Part shown: positions 32,300 through 63,860 of the stretch, in pieces
How the letters are laid out: each line of letters starts with the position of its first letter
Numbering within the stretch: the stretch's first letter is position 1
From: Streptomyces sp. NBC_01445
Lineage (GTDB): Bacteria > Actinomycetota > Actinomycetes > Streptomycetales > Streptomycetaceae
DNA: 64,000 bases
NCBI RefSeq assembly: GCF_035918235.1
Contig: NZ_CP109485.1
Location: 6,001,501 to 6,065,500, forward strand
Direction: 5' to 3'
Made by a program: the position numbers and the translations under genes
The notes under the pieces: generated by a model
What the model was told of the DNA's origin: nothing
Seen by the model: only the letters and a program-made list of their open reading frames with translations
Database searches by the model: none

Positions 32300-34792
<2,493 letters not shown>

Positions 34793-54179: not shown

Positions 54180-55013
54180 CTATTCGACGAACAGGCTCCG
54201 TTCCGCCGCGCGCACGTCGAATTCCTCCAGGCGGGCCTGCGCCTCGGGCAGGTTGTCGCACATCGCTTCCAGGAGTACGCGGCCGAGCAGCATCGGTGAG
54301 CACGCCGTGTCGAAGGCGAGGCCCTCGCCGACCGCGGCGGGCAGGAGCAGGTCCGAGTGCTTGGCGACGGGGGCGAAGGCCGAGTCGGCGACGGTGATCA
54401 CGGTGAGGCCGGCCGACTTGGCGTAGGCGAGCGCGTCGACGACTTCCTTGGGGTGGCGGGGGAGCGCGAAGCAGAGGAGCGCGGTGGCTCCGGCGCGGAC
54501 CGCGGCGTCGACGCGGTCGGCGAGCATCGTGCCGCCCTCGTCGAGGAGCCGTACGTCGGGGTGGACCTTCGCCGCGAAGTACGAGAAGCCGTAGGCCTGG
54601 GAGGCCGCGGCGCGCAGGCCGAGGACGAGGAGCGGGCGGGAGGCGGCGAGGAGGCGGCCCGCACGTTCGATCGGGGCGGGGTCGGCGAGGAGCTGGGCGA
54701 GGTGACGCAGGTTCTCGATCTCGGCCTCGACGGCCTGCTGGTACTCGTTGGCCGAGGCGGGGGTGGCGGGTTCGGCGGGGGCGACCTCGCGCAGGTGTTT
54801 GCGCAGGGCGGGGTAGCCGTCGAAGCCGAGTGCCACCGCGAAGCGGGTGACGGAGGGCTGGCTGACTCCCGCGAGTTCGGCGAGTTCCACGGAGGAGAGG
54901 AACGGGACGTCGGCGGCGCGGCGCACCATGCAGTGGGCGATGCGGCGCTGAGTGGGTGTCAGGCGGTGGACCTCGAAGAGCTGTTGGAGTCGTGCGGCAG
55001 GGCTGTCGTTCAT
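54180..55013 (-). CDS. MurR/RpiR-family transcriptional regulator
   Basis: 277 residues, ATG at 55013 overlapping the stop of the lyase gene (ATGA). The N-terminal HTH_6 domain has LTPTQRRIAHCMVRR and ELAELAGVSQPSVTRFAVALGFDGYP; the C-terminal SIS domain has LVLGLRAAASQAYGFSYFAAK and ALLCFALPRHPKEVVDALAYAK, for a sugar-phosphate or related ligand. Often a repressor of neighbouring catabolic genes. Here it probably controls the lyase and the divergent transport operon; the CTGCAT-N6-ATGCAG dyad at 56710 is a candidate site. Confidence 0.92.
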   Translation of the reverse strand: MNDSPAARLQQLFEVHRLTPTQRRIAHCMVRRAADVPFLSSVELAELAGVSQPSVTRFAVALGFDGYPALRKHLREVAPAEPATPASANEYQQAVEAEIENLRHLAQLLADPAPIERAGRLLAASRPLLVLGLRAAASQAYGFSYFAAKVHPDVRLLDEGGTMLADRVDAAVRAGATALLCFALPRHPKEVVDALAYAKSAGLTVITVADSAFAPVAKHSDLLLPAAVGEGLAFDTACSPMLLGRVLLEAMCDNLPEAQARLEEFDVRAAERSLFVE

Positions 55014-56593
55014 TCCGTCCCCCCAGGGCGGTCTGATCCGGCTGTTGCGGTGGCTGTGGCCGGTCCGTCTGTTCCGTCGGCGATGCGGGTGAAGCTGTCC
55101 AGGAGTCCCGCCGCGGCCCGGGTGACATCTTCCGTCAGGGGGCGGTCGGTTGCGTCCTGGTCGAGGACCGTATCCGCGAGGGCGAAGGCGCGGCCGACCG
55201 GGAGTTCGGGGTCGGGGTGCATGTCGCGCTGGCGCAACGCCCGTACGGCGGCGACGAGTTCGCAGCCGACGACGAGGCGGTAGGCCTCGCAGATGCGCAG
55301 GGTCTGGCGGGCGGCGAGGGACGCGAAGCTGGCCTGTTCCTCGACGCCGCGGGAGAGGACCGCGTGGCCGAGTGACGCGGGGGCGGCGAAGGCGCGCAGG
55401 TCGCCGAGGGCCGCTCCGGCCGCGTATTCGAGGATCATCACGCCCGAGGAGGCGGGTTCGCCGTCGGCGAGGAAGGGGCGCAGACGGGTGTAGGCCGGTT
55501 CGTTGAGGGTGGACAGGCGTGAGGTGGAGAGCCGGGCGACCTGGGCGATGGCGAGCCTGAAGTGGTCGAGTGCCAGGGCGAGTTGGGCCATGTAGAAGCC
55601 GCCGTGGTGGTAGGCGGCCATGTCCTGGGGGGAGATGAGGGGGTTCTCGGCGGCGGCGTTGATCTCGACGGTGAGTACGTCTTCGAGGGCGTCGGCGGCG
55701 TCCTGGGCGGGGCCGTGGATCTGGGGGACGCAGCGGAAGCCGTACGGGTCCTGGATGCGGCCCAGCGGCGGGGTCGGGCGTTCGGGGGCCCCGAGGATCG
55801 CGCGCATGCGGGCGGCGACGGCGTACGAGCCGCGGTGGTGGCGGGCCTCGTGGACGGGCAGGGCGTACGCCTCGTAGGAGCCGTCGACGGCCAGCAGGGA
55901 GAGTGCGGCGACGAGCTGGGTGGCGGAGATCAGGTCGCGCAGTTCGTGGAGCGCGAGGGCCGACTGGCCGAGAGTGAGGGCGTTGCTGCTGATGAGGGCG
56001 AGGGCGTCGTTGTTGTCGAGGGGCTGGGCGTCGGGGGCGCCGTCGCCGCGCCAGGGGTGCTCGCCGGCGAGGGCGAGGCCCATCTGGGCGAGGGCGGCGA
56101 TGTCGCCGGTGCCGACGGAGCCGAACTCGTTCACGACGGGGTAGGCGCCGGCCTCCAGGGCTTCGCAGAGCGCGGTGACGACGGTGGGCCGCAGCCCCGC
56201 ACCGCCGGCGAGGAGCTGGTTGGCGCGGACGGCTAGCATGGCGCGGACCTGCCGTGCGGGCAGCTCGTCGCCGATGGCGCCGGCGTGGCTGCGGAGCAGG
56301 CGCAGGCCGTGGTCGGCGGCGGCCTCGGTGGGCACGTCCTCGTTCCGGTTCGCGCCGACGCCGGTGGAGCGGCCGTAGACGCGGCCCCAGGCGGCGATCT
56401 CGCGGGCGGCGTTCCAGGACTCCTCGACGCGCTTCATGGCGTCGGTGCCGGGCACGGGCCGGGCGGCGGAGTCGGCCAGGCGTACGACGTCGGGCACGGG
56501 GAGACCGTGTCCGTCGAGCACGACGACGGGCGTGAGGCCCGGGGTGGCCGTCATTCGGGGCTTACCCGCGGTGTCCGCGATGTGAGACGACAT
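55010..56593 (-). CDS. Aromatic amino acid lyase (HAL/PAL family) lacking the MIO triad
   Basis: 527 residues from ATG at 56593 (GGAGGG, long spacing; ATG at 56554 possible). HAL-family hallmarks are present: YGRSTGVGANR (73-83), SSNALTLGQSALAL, DPYGFRCVPQIHG and ENPLIS. The prosthetic-group loop, normally GSVGASGDLAPLAH, reads GSVGTGDIAALAQ at 158-170: one residue shorter and without Ala-Ser-Gly, so the MIO electrophile cannot form in the usual way. It is therefore unlikely to be a standard histidine ammonia-lyase; an MIO-independent elimination, as in ergothionase-type enzymes, is an option. Confidence 0.88.
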   Translation of the reverse strand: MSSHIADTAGKPRMTATPGLTPVVVLDGHGLPVPDVVRLADSAARPVPGTDAMKRVEESWNAAREIAAWGRVYGRSTGVGANRNEDVPTEAAADHGLRLLRSHAGAIGDELPARQVRAMLAVRANQLLAGGAGLRPTVVTALCEALEAGAYPVVNEFGSVGTGDIAALAQMGLALAGEHPWRGDGAPDAQPLDNNDALALISSNALTLGQSALALHELRDLISATQLVAALSLLAVDGSYEAYALPVHEARHHRGSYAVAARMRAILGAPERPTPPLGRIQDPYGFRCVPQIHGPAQDAADALEDVLTVEINAAAENPLISPQDMAAYHHGGFYMAQLALALDHFRLAIAQVARLSTSRLSTLNEPAYTRLRPFLADGEPASSGVMILEYAAGAALGDLRAFAAPASLGHAVLSRGVEEQASFASLAARQTLRICEAYRLVVGCELVAAVRALRQRDMHPDPELPVGRAFALADTVLDQDATDRPLTEDVTRAAAGLLDSFTRIADGTDGPATATATAGSDRPGGTE

Positions 56594-56681
56594 GGTGCGC
56601 CAAACCCTCCTCAAACGGACGTCTTGTCTCGTTCCTCGGCTGCGTTAACCAGCGATTTACCTGGCGATGTGCGCCGGGGCA

Positions 56682-56727
56682 TTGACAACTTATTCAGATA
56701 CAGAGAACTCTGCATGACGATATGCAG
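56682..56727. promoter_or_regulatory. Divergent control region of the lyase and transport operons
   Basis: TTGACA at 56682-56687 resembles a -35 element; the -10 is unclear. CTGCAT-GACGAT-ATGCAG at 56710-56727 is a perfect 6-6-6 inverted repeat, and CAGAG-AA-CTCTG overlaps it at 56701-56712. The region is AT-rich relative to its surroundings. Likely binding site of the RpiR-type regulator encoded next to the lyase; inferred. Confidence 0.5.
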
Positions 56728-56747
56728 CCCGGGCAAGGGGACTCCAC

Positions 56748-57875
56748 ATGATCCAGTTCGATACGGTCCACAAACGCTTCCCGAACGGCACGACGGCAGT
56801 GCACGACCTGACGCTCGACATGCCGGAAGGGGGCGTGACCGTCTTCGTCGGGTCTTCCGGTTGCGGCAAGACGACCAGTCTGCGGATGATCAACCGGATG
56901 GTCGACCCGACCTCCGGCACCATCCGCGTCGGCGGCCGTGACGTCCTTGAGCAGGACGCGGCCGAGCTGCGCCGCTCCATCGGGTACGTCATCCAGCAGT
57001 CCGGCCTCTTCCCGCACCGCACCGTCCTCGACAACATCGCGACGGTGCCGCTCCTGCTCGGCTGGGGCCGGCGCAAGGCGCGGGCGCGGGCGGCCGAGCT
57101 CCTGGAGACCGTCGGCCTCACCGCCGAGGCCGGCAAGCGCTACCCGCACCAGCTCTCCGGCGGCCAGCAGCAGCGCGTCGGCGTGGCCCGCGCGCTCGCC
57201 GCCGACCCGCCGGTGCTGCTCATGGACGAGCCGTTCGGCGCGGTCGACCCCGTCGTGCGTACTCAGCTCCAGGACGAACTCCTGCGCCTCCAGCAGGAGT
57301 TGAACAAGACCATCGTCTTCGTCACGCACGACATCGACGAGGCCGTACGGCTCGGCGACCGGATAGCCGTCTTCCGCACGGGCGGTCACCTCGTCCAGTG
57401 CGCGCCGCCCGCCGAGCTGCTCGCCCGCCCCGCGGACGACTTCGTCGCCGACTTCCTGGGCGCCGAGCGCGGCCTGAAGCTGCTGTCCCTGACCACGCTC
57501 GCGGACGTCGGCCAGGGGCCGGCCCCGGAGGGCACCGGCTGGGAACTGGTCCTCGACGCGGCCCGCAAGCCGCTGCTGTGGCGTGACGAGGGCACCTCCG
57601 CCGAGGTGCCGGTGCGCCCGCTGCGGGACACGGACTCGCTCCTGTCGGCGCTGAACGAGTCGCTCGCGGCGCCCGGCGGCCTCGTGGCCCGGGTCGACGC
57701 GGACGGCGTCCTGACCGGCGTCACGTCCCGCGACGAGATCCACGACCGCGCGGGCCTCGCCCACATAGCCGCCGGCACCCGCGTGGACGCGCCCGAGGCC
57801 GCAGGCGACACCAGCGACGCCGCCGTCCACAAGGACGACACGGACGTCCAGAAGGACTCGGACGTGGCCTCATGA
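56748..57875 (+). CDS. OpuC/ProV-type ABC importer ATP-binding protein
   Basis: 375 residues, ATG at 56748 after AAGGGG. Walker [37 protein letters not shown] and VTHDIDEA are typical of glycine betaine/choline/carnitine importers, including [15 protein letters not shown]. The C-terminal 110 residues are a degenerate CBS-like regulatory region and an Asp/Lys-rich tail. First gene of a four-gene import operon; overlaps the permease start (ATGA). Confidence 0.93.
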
Positions 57876-58519
57876 CCATCGACTGGTCGTGGATATCGGA
57901 GCACACCTCCGACCTCACCACGCTCACGCTCTCGCACCTCCAGGCAGCGCTCTCCGCCGTCCTGCTCGGCCTGGTCATCTCGCTGCCGCTGGCCGTCGTC
58001 GCCCATCGCGTCAAGCCGCTGCGCGGCTTCCTGCTCGGGTTCTCGAACGTCCTGTTCACGATCCCGTCGATCGCGGTGTTCGTCCTGCTGCTCCCGGTCT
58101 CCGGCCTCACCCGCACCACCACGGTCATCGGCCTGACGATCTACACGCTCGTGGTGCTCCTGCGGAACACCGTCGAGGGCCTCGACTCGGTACCGGCGAA
58201 GACCAAGGAGGCCGCGAAGGCCATGGGGACGCGCCCGCTGCGCACCCTGCTCACCGTCGAACTGCCCCTCGCCCTGCCGGTGATCATGGCCGGGGTGCGG
58301 ATCGCGACCGTCATGGCGATCTCCCTGGTCTCCGTGGCGACGTACATCGGCGACGGCGGGCTCGGCCAGCTGTTCACCGACGGGTTCCAGCGCAACTTCC
58401 CGACCCCGGTCATCGCCGGCGTCGTGCTGACCCTGCTCCTCGCGCTCGCCGCGGACGCGGTCCTCGTCGCGGTGCAGTACGTGCTGACCCCCTGGACCCG
58501 CCGCCGGAGGAGTGCCTGA
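57872..58519 (+). CDS. OpuC-type ABC importer permease 1
   Basis: 215 residues, five to six spans. The permease EAA-like loop is TKEAAKAMGTRPLRTLLTVELPLALP; short pieces VELPLALPVIMAGVR and GDGGLGQLFTDGF are the standard OpuCB/OpuCD signatures. Coupled to the ATPase by a 4-base overlap. Forms a heterodimeric channel with the next gene product. Confidence 0.93.
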   Translation: MTIDWSWISEHTSDLTTLTLSHLQAALSAVLLGLVISLPLAVVAHRVKPLRGFLLGFSNVLFTIPSIAVFVLLLPVSGLTRTTTVIGLTIYTLVVLLRNTVEGLDSVPAKTKEAAKAMGTRPLRTLLTVELPLALPVIMAGVRIATVMAISLVSVATYIGDGGLGQLFTDGFQRNFPTPVIAGVVLTLLLALAADAVLVAVQYVLTPWTRRRRSA

Positions 58520-58520
58520 G

Positions 58521-59192
58521 ATGTACGAGCTCTTCAAGAACCTCGGCGCGTGGCTGGTCGACGGCGACCAGTGGGCGGGCCCCGACGGCATCGCGCACCG
58601 TCTCGCCGAGCACCTCCAGTACTCGCTGCTCGCCACGCTCATCGCGGCCGTCATCGCGCTGCCGCTCGGCCTGCTCATCGGCCACACCGGGCGCGGCGCG
58701 TTCCTCGCGATCAACCTGTCCAGCTTCGGCCGCGCGCTGCCGACCGTCGGCCTGGTCGTCCTCGTCTTCCTGGCGAGCGGCCTGTCCATGTGGCCGGTCT
58801 ACATCGCGCTCGTGGCCCTCGCGGTCCCGTCGATCGTCACCAACACGTACGCGGGCATGTCCGCCGTGGACCCGGAGGTCAGGGACGCGGCGCGCGGCCA
58901 GGGCATGCGCGGCCACCAGGTCCTGTTCCAGGTGGAGCTGCCGCTCGCGATGCCGCTGATCATGACCGGGCTGCGGCTCGCCCTGATCCAGGTCGTCGCG
59001 ACGGCGACCATCGCCGCGTACGTCTCCTTCGGCGGCCTCGGCCGCTACGTCTTCGACGGGCTCGCCCAGCGCGACCTCGTGCAGGTGCTCGGCGGTGCCG
59101 TCCTCGTGGCGGTCGTCGCCGTCGTACTCGACCTCGCGCTCTCCGCACTGCAGCGCGCCCTCTTCCGCCACCGCCCCGCCAAGTCGGCCTAG
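58521..59192 (+). CDS. OpuC-type ABC importer permease 2
   Basis: 223 residues from ATG at 58521; GGAGGAG lies at the right distance, while a GTG at 58512 would be too close. EAA-like loop RDAARGQGMRGHQVLFQVELPLAMP (pieces RDAARGQGM and VELPLAMPLIMTGLR) and SFGGLGRYVFDGLA are typical. Begins one base after the previous stop. Confidence 0.93.
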   Translation: MYELFKNLGAWLVDGDQWAGPDGIAHRLAEHLQYSLLATLIAAVIALPLGLLIGHTGRGAFLAINLSSFGRALPTVGLVVLVFLASGLSMWPVYIALVALAVPSIVTNTYAGMSAVDPEVRDAARGQGMRGHQVLFQVELPLAMPLIMTGLRLALIQVVATATIAAYVSFGGLGRYVFDGLAQRDLVQVLGGAVLVAVVAVVLDLALSALQRALFRHRPAKSA

Positions 59193-59203
59193 GAGCACGC
59201 AAG

Positions 59204-60139
59204 ATGAACCGCAGGACTGTCATCGGCGGCCTGTTCGCCGCAGCCTCCGTCCCCGCGCTCGCCGCGTGCAGCGGCGGCATCACCTCTCTCGACGGCCAGG
59301 GCTCGGGCGGCGGGGGCGGCGGCTCCAGCAAGAACGGCGTCACCATCGGCACCGCCAACTTCACCGAGAACCAGGTGCTGGGCTACCTGTACGCGGCCGC
59401 GCTCGAAGCGGCCGGTGTGAAGACGAAGGTCCGCCCCAACCTCGGCACCCGCGAGATCCTCATCCCCGCCCTCAAGGGCGGTGACATCGACCTGCTCCCC
59501 GAGTACCAGGGCGCCCTCCTGCACTACCTCGACCCGAAGTCGACGGCCACCGAGGAGGGCGAGATGCAGAACGCCCTCGCCGTCGTCCTGCCCAAGGGCC
59601 TGCAGATCCTGCCCTACGGCCTGGCGGAGGACTCCGACGCGTTCGTCGTCACCGCCGAGACGGCGAAGAAGTACAAGCTGACCTCGCTCGCCGACCTGGC
59701 CGAGCACAACGGCAAGCTCGTCATCGGCGCCGCCCCCGAGGTGAAGAAGCGCCAGGTGGGCGCGGTCGGCCTGAAGGACGTGTACGGCGTCGAGTTCAAG
59801 GAGTTCAAGTCCCTCGACTCGTCGGGTCCGCTGGTCAAGGGCGCCCTGAAGAAGGGCGACGTCGACGTGGCGAACCTCTTCACCACCGACACGGACATCG
59901 TCGACAACCACTGGGTCGTCCTCACCGACCCCAAGAACCTCGTCCCCGGCCAGCACGTCGTCCCGCTCGTCGCCGACCGCAAGGCCGACTCGACGGTCCG
60001 CAAGGCGCTCGCGCGCCTGGGCAACGTACTGACCACGGAGCAGCTCACCGAGCTCAACCGGCAGGTGGACAAGGACAAGAAGGATCCCGAGGACGTCGCC
60101 AACGCGTACGCGCGTCAGCACGGGATCAGCAAGGGCTGA
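59204..60139 (+). CDS. OpuAC-type substrate-binding lipoprotein
   Basis: 311 residues, ATG at 59204. Lipobox LAACSGG anchors it outside the membrane; a Gly/Ser linker follows. The OpuAC fold begins VTIGTANFTENQVLGYLYA and includes LKGGDIDLLPEYQGALLHYL, NLFTTDTDIVDNHWVVL and LVPGQHVVPLVAD. This group binds quaternary ammonium compounds (betaine, choline, carnitine, ergothioneine in EgtU) through an aromatic cage. The substrate here is not known; the adjacent lyase suggests a compound that the lyase can cleave. Confidence 0.92.
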   Translation: MNRRTVIGGLFAAASVPALAACSGGITSLDGQGSGGGGGGSSKNGVTIGTANFTENQVLGYLYAAALEAAGVKTKVRPNLGTREILIPALKGGDIDLLPEYQGALLHYLDPKSTATEEGEMQNALAVVLPKGLQILPYGLAEDSDAFVVTAETAKKYKLTSLADLAEHNGKLVIGAAPEVKKRQVGAVGLKDVYGVEFKEFKSLDSSGPLVKGALKKGDVDVANLFTTDTDIVDNHWVVLTDPKNLVPGQHVVPLVADRKADSTVRKALARLGNVLTTEQLTELNRQVDKDKKDPEDVANAYARQHGISKG

Positions 60140-60153
60140 AGGAGAGTCGGATC

Positions 60154-61554
60154 ATGGCCGAAGCACTCGTGGAGCGGCGCTCCATCGACGTAGTCCCCGA
60201 CGAGGAACGTCACGGCACGGCGTTCTCGCAGTTCACGCTCTGGCTCGGCGCGAACCTCCAGATCACCGCCGTCGTGACGGGCGCACTCGCCGTCGTCTTC
60301 GGCGGGGACGTGGTCTGGTCGCTCGTCGGGCTCGTCGTCGGCAACCTGCTGGGCGGCGCCGTCATGGCGCTGCACTCGGCGCAGGGCCCCAGGCTCGGCC
60401 TGCCGCAGATGATCCAGTCACGCGCCCAGTTCGGTGTGCGCGGCGCGGTCGTCCCGCTGCTCCTGGTGATCCTGATGTACGTCGGGTTCTTCGCGAGCGG
60501 CAGCGTGCTCGCCGGACAGGCCGTCGGCGAGCTCACGCACACCGGCGACACCACGGGCATCGTCGTGTTCGCCCTGGTCACCGGGGCGATGGCGACCGTC
60601 GGCTACCGCGTCATCCACGCGCTCGGCCGGGTCGCCAGCATCGTGTGCGCCGTCGCCTTCGTCTACCTCGGCATCCGGCTCCTGGACCGGGTCGACCTGT
60701 CCGCGCTGCTGCACGACGCGCACTTCGACGCCCCGATGTTCCTGCTCGCCATCTCGCTCTCCGCGTCCTGGCAGCTCGCCTTCGGCCCGTACGTCGCGGA
60801 CTACTCGCGCTATCTGCCCCGCACGACGTCGGCGAAGTCCACGTTCTGGTGGACGCTGTCGGGGTCGGCGATCGGCTCGCAGTGGTCGATGACGTTCGGC
60901 GTCCTCGTCGCGGCGACGGCGGGCGCGAAGTTCCTCGACAACCAGGTCAGCTACGTGGTCGGCCTCGGCGGCGCCGGGATCATCGCCTCGTTCCTGTACT
61001 TCGTGATCGCGCTCGGCAAGCTCACCATCAACGTGCTCAACACGTACGGCGGCTTCATGTCGATGGTGACGAGCGTCAGCGGCTTCCGCGGCCAGAAGGT
61101 CCTCTCGCAGGGCGCCAGGGCCGCGTACATCGCGCTGATCATGATCGCGGGCACGGCGGTCGCGCTCATCGGCAAGGACAGCTTCCTGTCGTCCTTCAAG
61201 GACTTCCTGCTGTTCCTGCTGACCTTCTTCACGCCCTGGTCGGCGATCAACCTGGTCGACTACTACCTGATCTCCAAGGAGCGGTACGACATCCCGGCCC
61301 TCTCCGACCCGCACGGGCGCTACGGGGCCTGGCGCTGGGACGCGCTCACCGTGTACGCGGTCGGGCTCCTCGCGCAGCTCCCGTTCCTCGCCACGCACTT
61401 CTACACGGGCCCCCTCGTCGAGCCGCTCGGCGGCGCCGACGTCTCCTGGATCGTGGGCCTCGTGGTGCCGGCCGTCCTGTACTGGGCCGTGGCCCGGCGC
61501 AACACGGCGCACATCCCCGAGCGGACGCTGCGTGAGCCGGTGGCGGCGGAGTAG
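60154..61554 (+). CDS. NCS1-family permease (cytosine/purine/hydantoin type)
   Basis: 466 residues, about 12 spans, ATG at 60154, 14 bp after the binding-protein stop. NCS1 features: FTLWLGANLQITAVVTGAL (span 1), LPQMIQSRAQFGVRGA between spans 2 and 3, SASWQLAFGPYVADYSRYLP in spans 6-7, and FLLTFFTPWSAINLVDYYL near the end. Family members import nucleobases, hydantoins or allantoin with Na+ or H+. Its place at the end of a betaine-type import operon suggests transport of a related heterocycle. Confidence 0.9.
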   Translation: MAEALVERRSIDVVPDEERHGTAFSQFTLWLGANLQITAVVTGALAVVFGGDVVWSLVGLVVGNLLGGAVMALHSAQGPRLGLPQMIQSRAQFGVRGAVVPLLLVILMYVGFFASGSVLAGQAVGELTHTGDTTGIVVFALVTGAMATVGYRVIHALGRVASIVCAVAFVYLGIRLLDRVDLSALLHDAHFDAPMFLLAISLSASWQLAFGPYVADYSRYLPRTTSAKSTFWWTLSGSAIGSQWSMTFGVLVAATAGAKFLDNQVSYVVGLGGAGIIASFLYFVIALGKLTINVLNTYGGFMSMVTSVSGFRGQKVLSQGARAAYIALIMIAGTAVALIGKDSFLSSFKDFLLFLLTFFTPWSAINLVDYYLISKERYDIPALSDPHGRYGAWRWDALTVYAVGLLAQLPFLATHFYTGPLVEPLGGADVSWIVGLVVPAVLYWAVARRNTAHIPERTLREPVAAE

Positions 61555-62125: not shown

Positions 62126-62500
62126 TCAGACGTCCAGCTCCGCCTCGATCTTCTTCAGCTGGTGGCGTGCCATCGCCAGGTTCGCGCGGCTCGAGTCGAG
62201 GACCAGGTACAGGAAGAGGCCGTTGCCGGATCGCCCCGACAGCAGGCGGATCAGGTGGTACTGGGTGCCGAGCGTGATCAGGATGTCCTCGATCTCGTCC
62301 TTGAGGCCGAGGTGCTCCATGGTGCGGAGCTTCGCCCGTACGACGTCGGTGTTGCCCGCGGCGGCCACTTCGAGGTCGAAGTCCTTGCTGCCGCCGATGG
62401 TGCCAAGCGCCATGCCGCTCGTGTAGTCGACGAGCGCGGCGGCGGTGGCGCCTTCGATCGAGGTGACGGCGTCCTTGAGGGAGGCTTCGGTGTTGGCCAT
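62126..62500 (-). CDS. Roadblock/LC7-like protein
   Basis: 124 residues, ATG at 62500 after AAAGGA. Roadblock-like alpha/beta pattern: [60 protein letters not shown] and [25 protein letters not shown], read here as separate strands and helices. Its C-terminal pattern is shared by the partial gene at the window edge. Roadblock proteins regulate small GTPases in bacteria; last gene of this operon. Confidence 0.82.
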
Positions 62501-62541
62501 GGTCGGTCCTTTCGAGGGATGCACGTGTGCGGTGGAGTCGT

Positions 62542-63018
62542 TCAGGAAGCGGACGGGGGCGGTACGGGGCGTGTCGGCAGCCGCTGTTGCCGGGGCGACG
62601 GCCGTGCCTGCCGCCCCTCGGGCGCGGGCCGAGGTTCGACGGGTGTCAGGACGTCCGCCACGAGTTCGCCGATACGCGCCCCGGAGCGGCGGCCCTCCAG
62701 GTGCAGGCGGCCGACGCTGACCTGGTCGTCCGCGAGCAGCGTCAGGACGGCTGACGGGCCGGCCGCGTAGGTGGCCACATAGCCGTGCGTGCCGCGCACG
62801 AGGAGTTCGCGGAGGGCGCCGCGCCCCGTCGCGTCGGCCATGCGCAGGGCCACACCGAGTGAGGCGGCGGTGAGCGCGGCGAGGGACTCGGCCTCCACGC
62901 CCGGGGTGTCCTGGGCGAGCACGAGCCCGTCGACACCCGCCGCGAGCGCACCCGTGAGGCGGGGCATCCGAGCCCTCAACCGGTGCAGTTCTTCGAGGAC
63001 TTCGGCCTCGGCCGTCAT
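62542..63018 (-). CDS. Roadblock/LC7-domain protein
   Basis: 158 residues, ATG at 63018 with AGGAGA. The roadblock fold is clearer than in its neighbour: [58 protein letters not shown] and [21 protein letters not shown] Pro/Arg-rich tail follows residue 125. Bacterial roadblock proteins pair with MglA-like GTPases or conservon sensors; no GTPase is in the visible part of the operon. Confidence 0.88.
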
Positions 63019-63056
63019 CAGCTGTCTCCTCTCGGCACGCTGGCGGAGCGCGCGTC

Positions 63057-63860
63057 TCACAGGGCCTCCAGCGCGTCTCTGAGGCGGCGTAACAGGGCGA
63101 CATCGGCGTCGGCCGACGCCGCGCCGGCCCAGGCGGGCACGGCCGGGGCGGGCGGCAGCGGACGCGGCGCCGCAGCCCGTACGAGGCCGGCGGCGGCGAG
63201 CCTGCGCAGATCCACCAGGGTGTGGAAGGCGGGCCTGCCGAGGACGTGGGAGATGTCGGCCGCGGTGCGCGCCCCGTCCACGAGGGCGAGCACCGCGCGC
63301 TGGCGCGGCGGCACCGCGGGGCTGTGGCGGCCGCCGTCCCGTTCGAGGGGCGCCGTGTCGGTCGCGGCGTCGGGCCGGATGCCGTGCAGCAGCTCGCGCC
63401 GGCGCAGCGTCTCGGCCTCCACGGACGCGACGGAGACGGGATGGACGGTGCCGAACCAGTGGGCGGCGCCGTAGCGGAAGCGGGCCGGGGCGCCGCTGGG
63501 CGCGAGGGCGAAGAACGCGGCGTCGTAGAGGGCGCCCAGGTGGCAGAGTTCGAGCGCGCCGTCGGTGAGCCGGCCGCTCTCCACGAGGTACCGGCCGACC
63601 CGCTGCCGTGTCCCGGCCGCGTCGACGGCCTCCCACCAGCCGTCGGGGTGCAGGGTGCCGCCGGTGGTGAGCAGGACGTCGATGCCGGGCGTCGCGGGGC
63701 TCTCGGCGTGCACGACCTGTCCGTCGGCGAGGTAGAGCGTGCCGCGGTCGCGCAGCAGGGCGCCGGTGGCCCGCTCCTCGGCGAGGCGGCGCAGCATGGG
63801 GGAGACCCCGGCCGGTGCCGTGGTGCGCCCCTCGGCCCTGGCCGCTGCCGTCGCGGTCAC
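63057..63860 (-). CDS. DUF4388-like protein with C-terminal winged-helix segment
   Basis: 267 residues, GTG at 63860 overlapping the upstream stop (GTGA). The N-terminal half resembles DUF4388/PatA-type domains: [38 protein letters not shown] middle part has [15 protein letters not shown]. The C-terminal [20 protein letters not shown] and [16 protein letters not shown] form a winged-helix-like element. Such proteins act in signalling clusters with roadblock and GTPase components. Function inferred from context only. Confidence 0.75.

Follow-up and report, generated by a model that had tools for sequence, protein, structure and literature searches.

The 64,000-nt stretch of the Streptomyces sp. 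NBC_01445 genome analysed here (contig NZ_CP109485.1, positions 6,001,501 to 6,065,500; hereafter the window) carries a gene cluster built around a homologue of histidine ammonia-lyase (HAL) that lacks the 4-methylideneimidazole-5-one (MIO) triad. The genome is 11.47 Mb in size, and the closest relatives of the lyase are proteins named Streptomyces. The lyase gene and an RpiR-family regulator gene form one operon, divergent from the four genes of an OpuC-type ATP-binding cassette (ABC) importer and a gene for an NCS1 permease (Table 1). All genes named in a preliminary description of this DNA were found at their positions. Within both gene runs, neighbouring genes overlap (RpiR and lyase by 4 nt, ATPase and permease 1 by 4 nt, permeases 1 and 2 by 8 nt) or are separated by short gaps (11 nt between permease 2 and the lipoprotein gene, 14 nt between the lipoprotein and NCS1 genes), a spacing that looks as it does in operons.

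Table 1. Features of the lyase cluster, in window coordinates.
Feature	Position	Strand	Evidence
RpiR-family regulator, second gene of the lyase operon	54180..55013	-	HTH_6 43 bits; SIS 20 bits, under cut-off (Pfam)
MIO-less lyase, predicted hercynine (trimethylhistidine) trimethylamine-lyase	55010..56593	-	PF00221 Lyase_aromatic 377 bits, signature residues, Foldseek, trees
MIO position, triad lost: GSVGTGDI, G165-I172 in the longest open reading frame	56099..56122	-	HAL equivalent GSVGASGDL
Divergent intergenic region, lyase operon / ABC operon	56594..56747	.	between ATG 56593 and ATPase
Inverted repeat CTGCAT-N6-ATGCAG, candidate operator	56710..56727	.	alignment of 19 divergent loci
ABC ATPase, ProV/OpuCA type	56748..57875	+	ABC_tran 126 bits; TIGR01186 305 bits, below the 326.6 cut-off
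ABC permease 1	57872..58519	+	BPD_transp_1 (permeases 1/2: 86 and 77 bits)
ABC permease 2	58512..59192	+	BPD_transp_1 (permeases 1/2: 86 and 77 bits)
OpuAC-family lipoprotein (binding protein), related to EgtU/ProX	59204..60139	+	OpuAC 180 bits
NCS1 permease	60154..61554	+	Transp_cyt_pur PF02133 195 bits; TIGR00800 126 bits, below the 353 cut-off

The longest open reading frame of the lyase extends to a TTG at 56614; the better start is the ATG at 56593 behind a GGAGGG, giving a protein of 527 aa. As the preliminary description had recognised, the MIO triad is missing, and it was lost through a one-residue deletion, GSVG-TGD in the window lyase against GSVGASGD in HAL. Two further marks accompany the deletion, V for F in the TGFG motif and S for N195. 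The three marks were found together in 51 of 51 MIO-less rows (the window, the ergothionase structure 6s7j and 49 loci, leaving out L056, in which the lyase frame is broken, and one duplicate of L066) and in none of eight HAL rows. Exceptions were seen in a pattern scan only: L143 has the triad together with V, and L121 and L187 are without the triad and have F and L in place of V. The pocket was compared using the residue numbering and roles that we presume for Pseudomonas HAL (Y53, H83, Q277, Y280, R283, F329 and E414). The equivalents of Y53, H83, Q277, R283 and F329 were kept in 51 of 51 MIO-less rows, and that of E414 in the rows covering it. Y280 is kept in the window lyase and variable within its clade, the position after F329 varies between subclades, and in a later, separate row set the F329 equivalent is W in Kribbella. 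Since most pocket residues are kept across the clade, with Y280 and the Kribbella W as the exceptions, a decayed pseudoenzyme was rejected. A plain HutH was ruled out by the lost triad and by a TIGR01225 (HutH) score of 288.5 bits, far under the cut-off of 539. The window lyase and HutH are alike in fold, retained pocket residues and hut context, but differ in the triad, in GVG for GFG and in S for N195. Three other PF00221 proteins of this genome keep the MIO triad.

A Foldseek search was performed with an AlphaFold2 model built from 19 sequences (mean pLDDT 86). Three chains of the Treponema denticola ergothionase 6s7j ranked first (TM-scores of 0.81/0.87), followed by HALs. Ergothionases have been characterised from T. 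denticola (6s7j/6s7q) and Burkholderia sp. HME13, and the window lyase resembles the Treponema enzyme in fold, MIO deletion, GVG, S for N195 and most pocket residues. This likeness, together with the top Foldseek rank at a narrow margin, supports the main rival to the reading proposed below, namely that the lyase is a strict ergothionase converting ergothioneine to thiourocanate and trimethylamine. In contrast, the two enzymes share only 25-26% identity in the Foldseek alignment and differ at two notable positions. K384, which we take to be the catalytic lysine of ergothionase, is present in three of four ergothionase-clade rows and is Y in the window lyase; the Y280L change, found in four of four ergothionase-clade rows, is absent from the window lyase. 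In a 41-row tree, 29 MIO-less and 12 MIO proteins were split by a 100/100 branch. The MIO-less rows comprised an actinobacterial clade of 23 that includes the window lyase (support 100/99, and 100/100 for the 13 rows of a 28-row repeat), an ergothionase clade of four and the pair L102/L105. The window lyase fell outside the clade of the characterised ergothionase in both trees. The ergothionase likeness suggested earlier thus stands for the MIO deletion and the two accompanying marks, and the phylogeny separates the MIO-less proteins from the MIO proteins without placing the window lyase among the ergothionases. Because it lies in another clade and lacks the K384 equivalent, we propose that it represents a family of its own, akin to ergothionase and possibly working in a similar way.

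Further lyase types were observed. A second, rarer Streptomyces type (L225 and L226) lacks the triad, has L at the V position and R at the H83 position, and carries the ergothionase-like lysine. Its gene lies with those of an ornithine-cyclodeaminase-family protein and a paralogue of the desulfinase candidate described below, divergent from the same ABC type (L225:3160-11256, L226:8898-16043), and in L225 the ABC genes are followed by an RpiR gene whose product is 80% identical to the window RpiR. In L099, another aromatic-lyase homologue, whose MIO site reads AVGAAGEIQ, lies in a hut locus beside a MIO-less lyase (L099:12557-14059). In the hut operon of Paracoccus saliphilus (L212:8911-10599), an ergothionase-clade lyase annotated as an ammonia-lyase directly follows hutU.

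Histidine-utilisation genes lie close to the window lyase. Just past the window end, a plus-strand run comprises hutU, an allantoate-amidohydrolase-type gene (AAH), hutF and hutI, with no hutH in the run (L095:6144-11638, equivalent to window positions 64644-70138); hutU starts at 64644, ~8 kb from the lyase. At 9.63 Mb this genome has a second hutU, close to a HutH relative that keeps the triad. We examined the same linkage in a set of named loci, which are the best 80 of at least 552 lyase relatives and not a census; the matched lyase is MIO-less in 18, and of the remaining 62, 61 have the triad and L124 is unclassed. hutU was present in six of the 18 (two of Sphaerisporangium and one each of Nonomuraea indica, Microbispora, Actinomadura and Kribbella), and also in the lyase loci of an Arthrobacter plasmid, L098, L099, L102 (an edge fragment) and L105. 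A true HutH and a MIO-less lyase occur together in L098, L115 and L172, in L098 inside one hut gene run. For nine MIO-less lyases of actinobacteria (L006, L044, L095, L098, L099, L105, L113, L115 and L172), a hutU gene no more than 10 kb away was scored. The encoded HutU proteins reached 763-935 bits with the ordinary NCBIfam model (cut-off 375), and all nine were under the cut-offs of both thiourocanate hydratase (930) and S-methyl-thiourocanate hydratase (880). No thiourocanate hydratase over its cut-off was found in the source genome, nor in any of 14 control genomes. A pathway via thiourocanate hydratase was rejected on these sub-threshold matches, and the ordinary character of HutU, both nearby and in the genome, is a further point against a strict ergothionase.

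In other actinobacteria, MIO-less lyases are linked to candidate genes of ergothioneine breakdown. The cupin adjoining the lyase in L044 matched PDB 8qfl at 250 bits, against ~30 bits for other cysteine dioxygenases. We take 8qfl to be the ergothioneine dioxygenase of Nalivaiko and Seebeck (Angew. Chem. 2024), which reportedly produces trimethylhistidine (hercynine) and SO2 in concert with a metal-dependent desulfinase of ergothioneine sulfinic acid. In Thermocatellispora tengchongensis (L167) the gene order is MIO-less lyase, LacI, desulfinase candidate and cupin, and the cupin, encoded by the third gene after the lyase, is 100% identical to 8qfl. The desulfinase candidate gene overlaps the cupin gene and its product starts with an amidohydrolase-like DVHQH motif; the paralogue in L225 scores 30 bits with Amidohydro_2. 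Among the best 80 named loci, the cupin was found in 8 of 18 MIO-less and 1 of 62 other loci (Fisher p 1.2e-5, an optimistic value because many of the 18 come from related genera). The desulfinase candidate was present in seven of the eight cupin-bearing MIO-less loci and in one of the 62 others, the same locus as the cupin. Lyases beside an 8qfl-like or identical cupin occur in Actinomadura, Thermocatellispora, Nonomuraea and some Streptomyces, mostly with the desulfinase candidate. In Actinomadura (L115), a hutI/F relative, AAH, hutU, a true hutH, ABC genes, the MIO-less lyase, LacI, the desulfinase candidate and the cupin all lie within 15 kb. In Nocardioides SR21, the desulfinase candidate and cupin genes directly follow hutU (L162:15131-16608). 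In the source genome, only distant cupins (34-35%) were found and a search run without a positive control gave no desulfinase match; an EgtD-family gene is present (385 bits).

Spread and linkage were quantified in one draw of 121 Streptomyces genomes, in which the lyase group was called by score (best E below 1e-58). It was present in 60 genomes, the source genome included, and 40 lyase loci were fetched, 39 of them with the MIO site inspected. The binding-protein gene was found in 32 of the 40 loci, which bears out the co-occurrence with the lyase on which the preliminary description had placed weight. hutU was found in 14 loci, the NCS1 gene in 12 (in two of these fragmentary or partial), and the trio of LacI, desulfinase candidate and cupin in six. 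An NCS1 relative follows the cupin in five of the six trio loci (L044, L046, L053, L054 and L055), and none was seen in L052. Binding-protein orthologues of at least 65% identity occurred in 36 genomes (one partial), all within the 60 lyase-bearing ones. The cupin (E below 1e-25) occurred in 9 of the 121 genomes, all nine among the 60 with the lyase (p 0.0013), within the lyase locus in six and on another contig in three. The arrangement of the cluster is not due to chance. A strict cut-off detected the MIO-less lyase in at least 15 of 396 genomes, a count that excludes the three triad-bearing genomes G153, G292 and G294.

Collectively, gene linkage and residue conservation suggest that the substrate of the lyase is likely to be a histidine betaine, hercynine or ergothioneine taken together, as the preliminary description had thought from gene content. 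Within this pair the balance has shifted. Linkage to putative ergothioneine-pathway and hut genes in other genera favours a histidine betaine as such, and ergothioneine itself is less likely than hercynine because all nine nearby HutU proteins are ordinary, K384 is missing and the linked dioxygenase and desulfinase, as we assume them to act, would remove sulfur first. The product entering an ordinary Hut pathway is urocanate, and the substrate is therefore most simply hercynine. We consider it rather probable that the lyase is a MIO-independent trimethylamine-lyase acting on hercynine (N-alpha-trimethylhistidine) and delivering urocanate to Hut. Imidazole and carboxylate would sit in the pocket formed by the equivalents of Y53, H83, Q277, Y280, R283, F329 and E414, which would also abstract the beta-proton. 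Because trimethylammonium is a good leaving group, the MIO electrophile that ammonia release requires would be dispensable. Urocanate would then pass to the HutU, HutI and HutF encoded nearby. In relatives, the cysteine-dioxygenase-like enzyme and the amidohydrolase-like desulfinase would first turn ergothioneine into hercynine, with the lyase as the proposed next step. Because no close cupin or desulfinase copy was found in the source genome, this strain may use hercynine directly, either from outside or made by its own EgtD-like enzyme. The scarcity of the cupin also speaks for a strict ergothionase: 51 of the 60 lyase-bearing Streptomyces genomes are without a cupin homologue at E 1e-25, suggesting that prior sulfur removal is not needed. 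Taking clade, the K384 and Y280 positions and HutU together, we regard that alternative as unlikely. It seems very improbable that the lyase acts on some other aromatic betaine, such as that of tyrosine or tryptophan or an S-modified ergothioneine, and that the neighbouring hut and ergothioneine genes are there on other grounds. The variable Y280 and post-F329 positions and the Kribbella W at F329 would leave room for different rings, but the linkage to hut and cupin/desulfinase genes recurs in different genera. Moreover, H83 and E414, the imidazole contacts of HAL, are conserved wherever window-clade rows extend over these positions.

Several observations weigh against the hercynine proposal. 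The Foldseek margin for 6s7j is narrow, with HAL chains reaching equal or higher TM-scores, and the best PDB sequence score of the lyase is with HAL 7tqr (183 bits), above ergothionase (152 bits). The 41-row tree has no outgroup, and midpoint rooting places the ergothionase clade closer to the MIO proteins than the window clade is; a single origin of the MIO-less groups would therefore depend on root placement. In the PDB, 8qfl bears the general title 'Cysteine dioxygenase', and the functions used here for cupin and desulfinase are presumed ones. The desulfinase candidate is without a match in Pfam, PDB or NCBIfam (at 1e-20), L109 has the cupin without it, and the Nocardioides SR21 hut locus has both genes in a genome in which no MIO-less lyase was found. 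The hutU next to the ergothionase-clade lyase of Paracoccus is an ordinary one, and an ordinary hutU nearby is therefore no proof of substrate; the proximity of hutU in Streptomyces may also reflect one ancestral insertion. Distant binding proteins are frequent in genomes without the lyase, and 10 of 10 mapped lyase-negative loci (binding proteins of 40-44%; two of these loci are stretches of only 12-13 kb) hold the ABC genes with none of the other partners looked for. Importer and lyase are therefore not tied everywhere. Conversely, the lyase loci L058 and L062-L065 are without binding protein, RpiR, NCS1, hutU and cupin, with a LacI relative in L064. The remaining point concerns the pocket of the binding protein, in which the cage is altered: D replaces Y341, Q replaces Y443 and D stands at N339.

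These positions are numbered as in EgtUC, which is among the best solved relatives of the binding protein together with Lmo1422 and AfProX. PMC9732360 describes a pocket with a cage of F293, Y341, Y419 and Y443 together with N339, in which E375 contacts the imidazole and R379 the carboxylate. The window protein belongs to the same family as the EgtU/OpuC quaternary-amine importers and keeps the equivalents of E375 and R379 and aromatics at 293 (Y) and 419 (F). Unlike them, it has replaced two aromatics of the four-residue cage as well as the Lys and Thr for the carboxylate (A for K242 and A for T296), has R for T275, and is a free lipoprotein whose two permeases are encoded by separate genes. 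The EgtU-type binding that had been expected of the lipoprotein is not supported, given these replacements. D at 341 with R at 275 occurs in every aligned Streptomyces relative except the misaligned L073, and also in Actinomadura, Kribbella, Lentzea, Arthrobacter and L100, with other positions varying. The full cage (with F at 419) was found only in L098, L102 and L105 among the loci examined. A betaine as ligand of the window protein appears doubtful because half of the cage is replaced, and an imidazole amino acid held via the acidic residues is possible. The ABC importer probably carries hercynine or a related imidazole amino acid, and the NCS1 permease probably a related heterocycle; the thio-imidazole cargo put forward earlier for the latter is one option beside others, as NCS1 relatives also occur in plain hut operons. 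In the locus L061, the permease and binding-protein genes are separated by a Roadblock/LC7 gene and one that is kinase-like.

The importer data bear on another alternative, that the cluster is an auxiliary histidine-utilisation module, with histidine or urocanate as the cargo of the ABC and NCS1 proteins and with a lyase that has become a slow or degenerate histidine ammonia-lyase. HutXWV of Pseudomonas is a betaine-family ABC importer. PMC8871633 describes HutXWV and HutTu as hut transporters of P. fluorescens, a system that likewise pairs an ABC importer with a further permease for histidine/urocanate use. In four Lentzea loci an ABC of the same type, which shares the acidic pocket, lies close to a true HutH, and NCS1 relatives lie inside the hut loci of Nocardioides jejuensis (L131) and Metallococcus (L144), in whose genomes no such lyase was found. 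However, a 56-58% relative of the window lyase, called by similarity only, is encoded at another place in each of the four Lentzea genomes. The MIO group is, as we understand it, required for ammonia elimination in characterised members, and the three loci with a true HutH alongside the MIO-less lyase also speak against this alternative. So does the lyase group itself, which does not look like a decaying enzyme, as half of the Streptomyces sampled have it and most of its pocket residues are conserved. We therefore judge a histidine module to be quite unlikely.

The RpiR protein may control the cluster. Copies 77-91% identical to it were found in 18 of the 40 Streptomyces lyase loci, and copies 46-51% identical in the hut/lyase loci L098 and L105. 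The inverted repeat between the two operons is the sole copy in the window at up to one mismatch, and in the 19 aligned divergent loci it was perfect in nine and had one mismatch in 10. It could be an operator, with leader or coding sequence also conceivable; the operator is only one reading because the ATG inside the repeat is the in-frame upstream ATPase start in L044 and L054. A promoter scan returned no promoters, and the sole terminator-like site was the inverted repeat itself (one found against 1.8 expected). No copy at up to two mismatches was found upstream of hutU in L095. Elsewhere in and around the window, a c-di-AMP riboswitch (ydaO/yuaA) lies at 32337-32508 (68.6 bits), and small minus-strand genes occupy 62126-63860, between the NCS1 gene and hutU.

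Proteins of this kind carry database names such as histidine or aromatic amino acid ammonia-lyase. According to a 2026 article (PMC13405746), ergothionase occurs in few genera only, and homologues that have diverged may be overlooked; lyases of the window type would, if the proposal is true, be such an overlooked divergent group with a different substrate. The open-access literature yielded no earlier account of a hercynine lyase, subscription papers being mostly outside the search. The full proposal is that many actinobacteria have a separate MIO-independent family that splits hercynine into trimethylamine and urocanate and joins oxidative breakdown of the antioxidant ergothioneine to histidine use, so that producers could recycle ergothioneine fully to glutamate, and that its partner importer has re-tooled an EgtU-like cage with acidic residues. 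For this combination as a whole we see the chances as evenly balanced. Should it hold, a trimethylamine-releasing lyase would be present under ammonia-lyase names in roughly half of the Streptomyces genomes sampled (60 of 121 by score). Hercynine would gain a fate, the route from ergothioneine to glutamate would be complete in soil actinobacteria, and many annotations would be corrected.

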